From Dehalococcoidia bacterium (GTDB taxonomy: Bacteria; Chloroflexota; Dehalococcoidia; DSTF01; WHTK01), in contig DATLYJ010000087.1 in NCBI GenBank assembly GCA_035574915.1, forward strand, positions 1-47,024: a DNA stretch of 47,024 bases, given 5' to 3'. Position 1 is the stretch's first letter; every line of letters starts with the position of its first letter. The notes under the pieces were generated by a model. That model was not told where the DNA came from, searched no databases, and was given only the letters and a program-made list of their open reading frames with translations. Of the stretch, positions 38,112-41,861 are shown piece by piece. The position numbers and the translations under genes were made by a program.

Positions 38112-38169
38112 TTGACAGCGTGGTAATCAGTGGTAGAGTGTGGGAGCTAGTGGGCAACTGTGAGGCGGG
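38112..38169 (+). promoter_or_regulatory. dcw promoter overlapped by an MraZ operator
   Basis: TTGACA (38112-38117), 16 bases, TAGAGT (38134-38139) preceded by TGG, forms the promoter. From 38120 GTGG recurs every 10 bases at 38120, 38130, 38140 and 38150, then GTGA at 38160. MraZ is known to bind direct repeats of this kind and to repress its own operon. The repeats cover the spacer, the -10 and the transcription start. Confidence 0.85.
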
Positions 38170-38207
38170 AGTGGGGCTCAAGTCATTCCCGTGGGGCAAC
38201 GGGGTCA

Positions 38208-38627
38208 ATGCTGTTTCTCGGCACATACCCTTACTCAATGGACGAGCGGGGCCGGGTCCCGATCCCACCCCGTTTCCGCGATGCCTTCCTGAGCGGCGTG
38301 ATCCTGACTCAGGGCTCGCCGGACAAGTGCGTGCGCATCTACCCCCTCTCGGGGTTTCAGGAGAAGGCAGACCTCTACATGGCGGAGCCGGTGACCCGGC
38401 GTCTCGGCCGGCTGATGCGGCGCAGCTTCTTCAGCGGCGCCTTCGACGCCCAGCTCGACCGGCAGGGCCGCGTGCTCATACCAACGCAGCTCCGCCGATG
38501 GGCGGGCCTCGACGGCGACGTCGTGGTCATTGGCATCGGCGACGGAGTCGAGATCTGGGACCAGGCCGCCTACGAGGAGGCGCGCGCGGCGGAGGAAGCG
38601 GAACTGGAGGCGCTCGAATCGGAATGA
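38208..38627 (+). CDS. mraZ: Transcriptional regulator MraZ
   Basis: MraZ is a ring-forming DNA-binding protein that represses the division and cell-wall cluster. ATG 38208 gives 139 residues, the family length; the frame is open to 38160, but that start lies within the operator repeats. The two AbrB-like halves each show the D-x-x-x-R motif: [11 protein letters not shown] near 11-21 and [11 protein letters not shown] near 79-89. Its end overlaps rsmH (ATGATG over the TGA). The operator upstream indicates autoregulation. Confidence 0.95.
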
Positions 38628-39574
38628 TGGCTACCGAAGAAGCCGTCGCCCATGAGCCCGTCATGCTGCGCGAGGTCCTCGCCGGCCTCAACGTCGTGCC
38701 CGGCGGCCGCTACGTGGACTGCACCGTGGACGGCGGCGGCCACGCCGAAGCGATCCTTTTCGCCTCGGCTCCCGGCGGCTCCGTCCTGGGCATCGACGCC
38801 GACGCCGACGCTCTTGACCGCGCGCGGCGCCGGCTATCGCACTTCGGGTCGTCCGTAGCGCTGGTGCACGCCAACTTCCGCGATGTCGACACTGTCTGCC
38901 GCGAACGCAGCTTCGTGCCTGTGAACGGCATCCTTTTCGACCTTGGGCTCTCTTCCATCCAACTCGCGAGCGCCTCCAGGGGGTTCAGCTTCATGCGCGA
39001 AGGGCCCCTGGACATGCGCTTCTCGCCGGACCAGGAGACTACCGCTTCCTACTGGGTGAACGAGGCGTCAGAAGCCGAACTGTCAGACTTGATCTGGCGT
39101 TTCGGCGAGGAGAAGGAGAGCCGGCGTATCGCCCGAGCCATCGTCCAGCGTCGTCCCTTGCAGACGACAACCGATCTAGCCAAAGCCGTCGAGCAGGCCG
39201 TGGGCCGGAGGCCTGGAAGTCAAACCCACCCCGCCACCAGGACTTTCCAGGCCCTCCGCATCGCCGTCAACCAGGAGCTAGCCACCCTGAGCGACGCGTT
39301 GCCTCGGGCCCTCGGCCTGCTCGGCTTTGGATCCCGGCTTGTGGTCATCAGTTACCACTCGCTTGAGGACCGCATCGTCAAGCAGTTCATTGCGCGCGAG
39401 TCACGGGACTGCATTTGCCCGCCCCGGCAGCCGGTCTGCACCTGCGGCCACAAGGCGACTTTGCGGCCCGTGACCAGGGGCGCGGTCACTCCCTCCCCGG
39501 AGGAAGTGGCCCGCAACCCGCGCGCCCGTAGCGCGAAGCTCCGGGTCGCGGAGCGGCTGCCGGCGGCCGCCTGA
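38624..39574 (+). CDS. rsmH: 16S rRNA (cytosine1402-N4)-methyltransferase RsmH
   Basis: RsmH (MraW) methylates N4 of C1402 in the ribosomal P site. Two adjacent ATGs (38624, 38627) overlap the mraZ stop; the product is about 316 residues. Motifs: [13 protein letters not shown], the SAM site [44 protein letters not shown] and [14 protein letters not shown]. Near the end [15 protein letters not shown] adds four cysteines, a cluster also found in many family members. ftsL follows three bases after the stop. Confidence 0.96.
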
Positions 39575-39577
39575 ATC

Positions 39578-40009
39578 ATGGCGACGCTCGACCGCCTCGC
39601 TCCACCCGTTGCTGCCCTTCCCCGCGAAGGGACCTGGACGCCCCGTCGCGCTATAGCCACCGCGGTCACCACCGCGGTGGCTATAGCGCTTCTCCAGGTC
39701 TTCCAGTCCGGGACCTTCGCCAACACCGGCGCCACCATCCAGCAGCTGGAGGCTGCGCGGACCGACGCCCGGGCTCGAGTCCACGATCTCGAGGCCGAGA
39801 TCGCGGCCCTCGCCTCGCTCGACCGCACCGAGCGCGCGGCGCGCGAACGTCTGGGCATGGTGCGGGCGACCAACATCACCTACATCGAGGTCGGCGTACC
39901 GGCCCCGGCAGGGCCGCTCCTGCCGCGCCCTGTCACCGACGCCACCCGACCAACAGAGGACAACAGGGCCTGGTGGGAGAAGATCCTGCAAGCCCTGCCG
40001 CTGCGATGA
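39578..40009 (+). CDS. ftsL: Cell-division protein FtsL-like
   Basis: A 143-residue bitopic protein: short cytoplasmic part, one membrane helix (about 24-44, AIATAVTTAVAIALLQVF), then a coiled coil (QQLEAARTDARARVHDLEAE) with RTERAARERLGMV, the usual FtsL/DivIC architecture, and a Pro-rich C-terminus. The position between rsmH and ftsI supports FtsL. The DNA encoding the first half of the helix is a perfect 19-bp inverted repeat (39648-39689), so the peptide AIATAVTTAVAIA is itself symmetrical, and two AUA codons are used there. Confidence 0.8.
   Translation: MATLDRLAPPVAALPREGTWTPRRAIATAVTTAVAIALLQVFQSGTFANTGATIQQLEAARTDARARVHDLEAEIAALASLDRTERAARERLGMVRATNITYIEVGVPAPAGPLLPRPVTDATRPTEDNRAWWEKILQALPLR
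39648..39689. repeat. Perfect 19-bp inverted repeat inside ftsL
   Basis: GCGCTATAGCCACCGCGGT (39648-39666), loop CACC, ACCGCGGTGGCTATAGCGC (39671-39689). Each arm is built from smaller palindromes, GCTATAGC and ACCGCGGT, so both also occur as direct repeats. It would form a very stable hairpin in mRNA or serve as a symmetrical protein-binding site. Confidence 0.9.
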
Positions 40010-40115
40010 TTCGACGACGGACGATTACGCGAGGGCAAGGAGCAGGTCAGGCCGCGCCCGGGCGCAGCTAGCCCTGTCCCTGGCCCGCGCTCCCGATTGC
40101 TCGGTGGGAGGGATC

Positions 40116-41861
40116 GTGCCGAAGGGTAACGGCAGCAGGTTCACCTGGCGCTTCGCCGCGCTCGTAGGCTTCCTCACGCTTGCCACCGCAGCGCTCGTCG
40201 TTCGCCTCGCCTTCATTCAGATCGTCCACCACGACCGCTACACTGTCGAGGCCCAGGCCGAGCACTTCCACAAGCAGCTCGTCCGCTCCAGCCGCGGCGC
40301 GATCCTGGACCGGAACGGGTTTCCGCTGGCCACGACGATCGACGCTTTCGACGTCTACGTCGACCGGCGCGCCTGGCGTGACGACGCCCCCGACCGCCCC
40401 CGCCGCGCCGCGTCAGCCCTTGCGCCCCTGCTGGGCAAGCCCGAACCGGCGCTCCTGGCGAGGCTCCTGGACACCTCCGAGGGCCCCGTGGGCCTCCTCG
40501 CCGACGGCATCGACTTCGAGGTAGGGCGAGCGATCCAGGACCTGGCGCTTCCGGGCATCTCCGTGGTTGCCGCGACCAAGCGCTATTACCCAGAGGGCGA
40601 CATCGCCTCCAGCCTCATCGGCTTCCTGGGCCGTGACCATTCCGGGCTCGCCGGGCTGGAAGCAGACCTCGACGACATCCTCAGCGGCACGCCCGGCGCC
40701 ATCTACTTCGAGCGCGACAGCATAGGCCGCCCGATCGCCTTCGGCGAAAGCCGCGTCGAGGCCGGCCGCCCCGGCGCCGACGTCCGCCTCACCATCGACC
40801 GCTACATCCAGCGCCTGGTGGAGGTCGAGCTCGACAAGCAGATCAAGGACCACCAGGCCAGCGGCGGCTCGATCATCGTCATGGACCCGAAGACCGGCGC
40901 CATCCTCGCCATGGCCAGCCGGCCGAGCTTCCGGCTCTCGCAGCTCAGCCTTGAGGGAGAGCCGCCGCTAGACCTCTTCCGTAACCGGGCGGTGACTGAC
41001 CTGTACGAGCCCGGCTCCGTGATCAAGACAATCACCATGGCCGCGGCCATCGACATGGGCCTGGTTACCCCCGGCACGACCTATTACGACAGCGGCACGG
41101 TCACGAAGGGCGGCTACACCTTCAAGAACTGGGACTTCAGCGCCAACGGCACCCAGACCATGGTCGAACTGCTCCAGAAGAGCCTCAATACGGGGGCTAT
41201 CTGGCTCAGCGACCTCCTCGGGGCCAACAACCTCTACGCCTACCTCAAGCGCTTCGGCTTCGGCGAGTCCACGTACTCCGGGCTCGGCGGCGAGGCGACC
41301 GGCCTGCTCCGCACCAACAAAGACAGCGGTTGGTACCCCTCTGACCTCGCAACGAACAGCTACGGCCAGGGCATGGCGGCGACGCCGCTCCAGGTCATCA
41401 CCGCCATCGCCGCCGTGATCAATGGCGGCAAGCTCATGCGGCCATACGTTATCCAGGAGGTAGACTCGAGCGAGGGGCGCCGCATTTACGAACCTGTTAT
41501 CGTCAGGCAGGCGATCTCGGAGGCTGCTTCCAGGACAATGGTCTCGATGCTGAACGAGGTTGTCGACGGCAACCCCGTGCACAAGGCCCGCATCCGCGGC
41601 TACCGGGTCGGCGGCAAGACCGGCACGACGCTCGTCTCGATTCCCACCGGCTACGCCCTCGACTCGACCATTGCCTCGTTCGTCGGCTTCGCCCCGGTAG
41701 AGGACCCGGCTTTCATCATGCTCGTCAAGATCGACCAGCCCCAGGATGACCCTCTCGGCGGCATTGTCGCCGCGCCGGTCTTCGGCAAGCTGGCGCCTCA
41801 AATCCTCGCCTACCTCAACGTCCCGCCCAGCACGGGCCCCGCCGTGCGGACGGCCCCTTGA
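40116..41861 (+). CDS. ftsI: Peptidoglycan transpeptidase FtsI (class B PBP)
   Basis: FtsI cross-links septal peptidoglycan with FtsW. GTG 40116 has GGGAGGG four bases upstream and gives 581 residues; GTG 40104 is less likely. One membrane helix (about 13-32) leads to the pedestal (SSRGAILDRNGFPLATT) and the transpeptidase domain, with Ser301-X-X-Lys304 (SVIK), Ser356-Leu-Asn358 and Lys501-Thr-Gly503. No PASTA repeats follow. The stop overlaps or abuts murF; murE, which usually lies between, is absent. Confidence 0.96.
   Translation: MPKGNGSRFTWRFAALVGFLTLATAALVVRLAFIQIVHHDRYTVEAQAEHFHKQLVRSSRGAILDRNGFPLATTIDAFDVYVDRRAWRDDAPDRPRRAASALAPLLGKPEPALLARLLDTSEGPVGLLADGIDFEVGRAIQDLALPGISVVAATKRYYPEGDIASSLIGFLGRDHSGLAGLEADLDDILSGTPGAIYFERDSIGRPIAFGESRVEAGRPGADVRLTIDRYIQRLVEVELDKQIKDHQASGGSIIVMDPKTGAILAMASRPSFRLSQLSLEGEPPLDLFRNRAVTDLYEPGSVIKTITMAAAIDMGLVTPGTTYYDSGTVTKGGYTFKNWDFSANGTQTMVELLQKSLNTGAIWLSDLLGANNLYAYLKRFGFGESTYSGLGGEATGLLRTNKDSGWYPSDLATNSYGQGMAATPLQVITAIAAVINGGKLMRPYVIQEVDSSEGRRIYEPVIVRQAISEAASRTMVSMLNEVVDGNPVHKARIRGYRVGGKTGTTLVSIPTGYALDSTIASFVGFAPVEDPAFIMLVKIDQPQDDPLGGIVAAPVFGKLAPQILAYLNVPPSTGPAVRTAP

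Follow-up and report, generated by a model that had tools for sequence, protein, structure and literature searches.

Palindromic sequences in or near genes have been described in several groups of organisms. The RPE of Rickettsia are palindromic elements inserted in genes, and REP/BIME are palindromic repeats that occur in or near genes. In the mitochondria of Nematomorpha, palindromes are numerous, reach up to 284 bp, and both of their arms encode conserved protein regions (PMC6649704). Quasi-palindromes are also shaped by template switching (the Ripley mechanism), a process established for bacteria as well as yeast. Inside coding genes it homogenises the arms of inverted repeats and alters amino acids (Abraham and Hazkani-Covo 2021, PMC8604942). 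It also creates and maintains stems, and compensatory stem changes have been suggested to arise from it (Monttinen and Loytynoja 2022, PMC8794818).

Here, we describe a palindrome that lies inside the coding sequence of an ftsL-like gene from a genome of the Dehalococcoidia. As with the Rickettsia RPE and REP/BIME, the palindrome is associated with a gene; unlike them, it represents no insertion relative to homologues and has no second copy in the genome. It shares with the Nematomorpha palindromes (PMC6649704) the presence of perfect inverted repeats in a protein gene with both arms coding, but it is one 19-bp stem, located in a bacterial chromosomal gene cluster and in a variable protein segment. 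The closest resemblance is to the template-switch cases (PMC8794818, PMC8604942): the repeat is short and near-perfect, and its arms change together, also by multi-base and nonsynonymous changes, within a coding gene. Unlike those cases, the ftsL stem spans a genus-level split, and two species do not allow reconstruction of the ancestral state or of the copying event.

We read the palindrome as an inherited coding stem-loop that predates the split of the family's two known genera and whose arms are maintained alike mainly by mutation, with a probability of roughly 45%. The ftsL hairpin is a fresh example of an already known phenomenon. It is also a compact natural case, in which one stretch carries both protein code and a stem, within an essential-gene cluster, with arms co-changing across a genus-level split.

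The features of the locus, given as positions in the window (the whole stretch of 47,024 nucleotides that was analysed), are as follows:

38160–38627, plus strand: mraZ (Pfam MraZ, 1.9e-23)
38621–39574, plus strand: rsmH (mraW; Pfam Methyltransf_5, 5e-104)
39578–40009, plus strand: ftsL-like gene (FtsL/DivIC family), 143 amino acids, between rsmH and the penicillin-binding protein (PBP) gene (open reading frame, Pfam DivIC PF04977, synteny)
39648–39666, plus strand: 5′ arm of the stem, ftsL codons 24–30 (R-A-I-A-T-A-V), paired in the mRNA fold
39667–39670, plus strand: loop CACC, 4 nt (sequence and mRNA fold)
39671–39689, plus strand: 3′ arm of the stem, ftsL codons 32–38 (T-A-V-A-I-A-L); the homologous arm in G001:C57 pairs too
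40104–41861, plus strand: PBP gene (ftsI/pbpB type), downstream of ftsL (Pfam Transpeptidase, 5.5e-70; PBP_dimer, 9e-17); the true start may be GTG at 40116 rather than 40104

The genes follow the order mraZ-rsmH-ftsL-PBP-murF, murF being named by the sequence of its open reading frame and its position. The predicted product of the ftsL-like gene matches the DivIC profile (PF04977) over residues 52–102 with 1.5e-7 and 31.6 bits, against a cut-off of 28.9. This profile match and the dcw neighbourhood identify it as an FtsL/DivIC cell-division protein. Codons 24–38, which form the stem, encode the membrane helix RRAIATAVTTAVAIALLQV, as predicted by hydropathy and alignment. The mean hydropathy of this helix (2.01, against 2.44 ± 0.37) is low yet not out of range, so a marked loss of hydrophobicity was rejected. 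Programmed frameshifting was rejected as well on inspection by eye: there is a CCC-CGT run upstream, but the +1 frame stops within the stem and the run is missing at the corresponding codon of the related genome G001. An imperfect 35-nt inverted repeat (40029–40090, 77%) lies between ftsL and the PBP gene; it was discarded as a conserved palindrome because G001 does not conserve the intervening gap.

The palindrome itself is real. A preliminary description had reported perfect 19-bp arms around a 4-base loop at 39648–39689, and re-analysis gave exactly this: the 5′ arm GCGCTATAGCCACCGCGGT and the 3′ arm ACCGCGGTGGCTATAGCGC are 100% complementary over 19 bp. The nested self-complementary words reported there were also located, each twice, namely GCTATAGC at 39650–39657 and 39680–39687 and ACCGCGGT at 39659–39666 and 39671–39678. 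The same is true of the two uncommon AUA codons: ATA makes up about 6% of isoleucine codons in the aligned genes of this genome and two of them fall inside the palindrome. In a background of 317 kb (272 kb of other stretches of the genome plus the window), the ftsL palindrome ranks first in length among perfect inverted repeats with a loop of 3–20 nt; the runners-up have arms of 15, 14 and 14 bp.

A genome search allowing up to 2 mismatches found no second copy of a 17-mer of the palindrome and no other combined GCTATAGC-ACCGCGGT site. An insertion or a mobile palindromic element (RPE/REP/MITE) was rejected, as the sequence is single-copy and aligns to its homologues without gaps.

How surprising the palindrome is depends on the peptide. 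Its register pairs codon position 3 with position 3 and position 1 with position 2. In this register, alanine, threonine, valine and isoleucine codons (purine-pyrimidine-N) are mutually complementary, and chance estimates based on base composition therefore overstate the surprise. With the peptide fixed, draws from the codon usage gave a perfect 19-bp arm in about 0.15% of synonymous versions. A simple rule follows: where a genome is GC-rich, helices rich in these four residues are prone to form palindromes in this register.

The peptide is nevertheless unusual in its own right. All 13 pairs between codon positions 1 and 2 are complementary at the peptide level in this genome, and 10 of 13 are in G001. 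Among 77 other ftsL genes (11,140 in-frame registers) the value never exceeds 9, nor does it in 2,290 other registers in ftsL and the neighbouring genes of this genome. The unusual feature is the peptide and its codons in combination.

The comparison within the family relied on one other species, the Dehalococcoidia MAG Dino_bin34 (G001), which belongs to another genus and whose FtsL is 58% identical; a scan of genome contigs for further family members returned G001 alone, and viral contigs returned none. The homologous 42-mer of G001, GCGCGATAGTCGCAGCCCTCTTTGCGGCCGTGACTATCGCGC, forms a hairpin in the identical register, with 11 perfect outer pairs, 15 of 19 Watson-Crick pairs and 17 of 19 when G-U pairs are included. 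The stem is perfect in this genome only. From this genome to G001, three pairs are compensated. Pair 5 changes from T-A to G-C and pair 17 from G-C to C-G, both at codon third positions on either side, while pair 10 changes from C-G to T-A at codon positions 2 and 1. The change at pair 10 is nonsynonymous on both sides (Ala to Val and Ala to Thr). Two of the three compensations are thus synonymous, and two are double transversions without a G-U intermediate. Among the remaining pairs, 12 and 19 are G-U on the sense strand in G001, and 14 and 18 are broken.

One of the two rare codons is also shared. Out of 11 ATA codons in the aligned genes, a single one is common to both genomes, and it lies within the stem at 39653, where it pairs in both with a rare T-ending codon.

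These results indicate, from the comparison of the two sequences, that the stem was inherited and dates back at least to the separation of the two genera. A purely recent inverted duplication, one of the origins offered in the preliminary description, is accordingly disfavoured: the stem occurs in both genera, and its length is unchanged, with relatives at the order level aligning without gaps. The nucleotide alignment of sister ftsL genes proposed there indeed showed that the nearest relative retains the stem with compensated changes on both arms. The interpretation given there is partly supported. The same-register stem in G001 and the three compensated pairs, two of them synonymous, indicate that the palindrome has persisted over time, but the step from such compensation to selection is unsafe, because template-switch copying between arms gives the same pattern (PMC8794818, PMC8604942).

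An assembly artefact is extremely improbable. Both genomes are many-contig drafts and G001 is labelled a MAG, but the frame and length match those of relatives without gaps, and the same-register stem is present in a separately deposited assembly of another genus. Binding of a dimeric or tetrameric regulator to the DNA, to which the perfect nested palindromes of this genome would be suited, is very unlikely too. The GCTATAGC and ACCGCGGT palindromes are lost in G001, where the half-site words diverge and the pairing of the arms persists, and the genome holds no second site at up to 2 mismatches.

Could the likeness of the arms in G001 result from composition and ancestry alone? Under this explanation, complementarity arises easily where a GC-rich genome encodes a helix rich in Ala, Thr, Val and Ile, G001 has part of it through common descent, and the two arms evolve uncoupled. 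The share of perfect synonymous versions given the peptide (0.15%), the peptide being partly common by descent, and the choice of this palindrome for being perfect are all in keeping with it. However, comparison of 3,732 aligned codons shows that, beyond codon bias, synonymous identity between the two genomes is retained at only about 16%. A null model with that codon retention gave P = 0.003 for at least 15 Watson-Crick pairs in G001 (0.006 counting G-U), and uncoupled descent from a perfect ancestral palindrome gave P of about 0.016 for G001. Plain inheritance thus fits poorly (P of about 0.003–0.016), because synonymous sites elsewhere are nearly randomised between the two genomes. Uncoupled descent evaluated for both genomes jointly at six wobble pairs gave P of about 1e-4, a value inflated by the choice of the window for its perfect stem; the fair coupling statistics are those for G001 only. 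Seven other hairpins with arms of at least 8 bp in the same aligned codons showed no such conservation (P from 0.31 to 1). Together with peptide complementarity of 13/13 and 10/13 against a maximum of 9 in the 11,140 other registers, this makes composition and ancestry alone an unlikely explanation. On this sequence evidence, the two arms have changed in concert.

Selection and mutational arm-copying compete directly as causes of the compensation; synonymous positions pair only with synonymous ones. In the case of selection, a family mRNA hairpin about 70 nt past the ftsL start codon would tune how the division-gene transcript is translated or processed, either by slowing ribosomes or by acting as a stabilising or RNase III-type stem; the compensations would serve to preserve it. 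The predicted folds are consistent with this. As isolated RNA, the 42-mer folds at −39.6 kcal/mol (z −10.4) in this genome and at −29.1 kcal/mol (z −6.1) in G001, where z is −3.5 against synonymous shuffles. The mRNA segment 39640–39697 folds at −41 kcal/mol with the arms paired, and the stem persists when the whole ftsL gene and its flanks are folded. The compensated synonymous pairs, the sole shared ATA falling in the stem, near-saturated synonymous divergence elsewhere and the tolerance of sense-strand G-U point the same way.

On the other hand, two of the compensations are double transversions, and the whole window has no Rfam match at gathering thresholds. The covariation is seen across two lineages, and the stem is absent from 77 ftsL genes of more distant class members. 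In the homologous register these average 5.7 Watson-Crick pairs, with a maximum of 9, and none of their 33,651 registers reaches 15 (maximum 14). A class-wide ftsL hairpin was rejected, as synonymous shuffles of 79 class ftsL genes showed no tendency to form one over the helix (mean z 0.02 at offset −42). We regard a selected hairpin as a serious but less likely alternative. Its stronger form, in which a family-specific stem-loop in the helix codons controls how much FtsL, or how much of the downstream division proteins, is made and has bent the helix towards Ala, Thr, Val and Ile for the sake of the RNA, seems doubtful. A ribosome pause for membrane insertion, raised in the preliminary description, is by reasoning unlikely: the stem consists of the helix codons, so the ribosome would be delayed before the helix is made.

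Template switching is our preferred explanation. The arms of a quasi-palindrome would pair during replication, and the polymerase could then copy one arm off the other, mending mismatches in a single event. In ftsL such copying would be tolerated, as codons for Ala, Thr, Val and Ile complement one another in register and a membrane helix may accept their exchange. The strong mRNA hairpin that results may have a modest effect on the speed or processing of the transcript, but the explanation requires no function.

The locus has what template switching would lead one to expect, that is, a near-perfect, closely spaced inverted repeat (19-bp arms, 4-nt loop) and arms that change together between relatives (three compensated pairs, with 15 of 19 Watson-Crick pairs kept in G001). 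Further points favour the mechanism. Of the three compensated pairs, two are double transversions barred from the G-U route and one is nonsynonymous in both arms, features that both fit copying in a single event; the stem is perfect in one species only; and no other surveyed lineage of the class keeps a stem here. Several observations weigh against it. Mismatch intermediates in a long selected stem could also lead to these compensations; of the four non-Watson-Crick pairs of G001, two are sense-strand G-U, which slightly favours RNA; and a rare AUA codon is kept in both species. With two species, moreover, the events cannot be polarised, no template-switch footprint can be reconstructed, and mutational maintenance is not separated from RNA function. 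The same register, the coupled changes, the constant length and the absence from the rest of the class are observed; that the arms owe their likeness mainly to a mutational process is a reading we put at somewhat short of even odds.

The survey of the class also revealed other ftsL hairpins. In another family, four species of a single genus (L113, L093, L089 and L088) carry a different one, in the RPRSS..RRLLRG codons directly before the membrane helix and roughly 90 nt 5′ of the LLQV-equivalent codons; it did not turn up at this position in other genera. Its 12-bp arms (GCCGCGCAGCAG...CTGCTGCGCGGC) are perfect in three of the four species and contain G-U in the fourth, and the predicted energies range from −29 to −36 kcal/mol. 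In a single further case, the ftsL gene of L036 has a strong local stem (−31.9 kcal/mol) late in the coding sequence, about 207 nt past the LLQV-equivalent codon.
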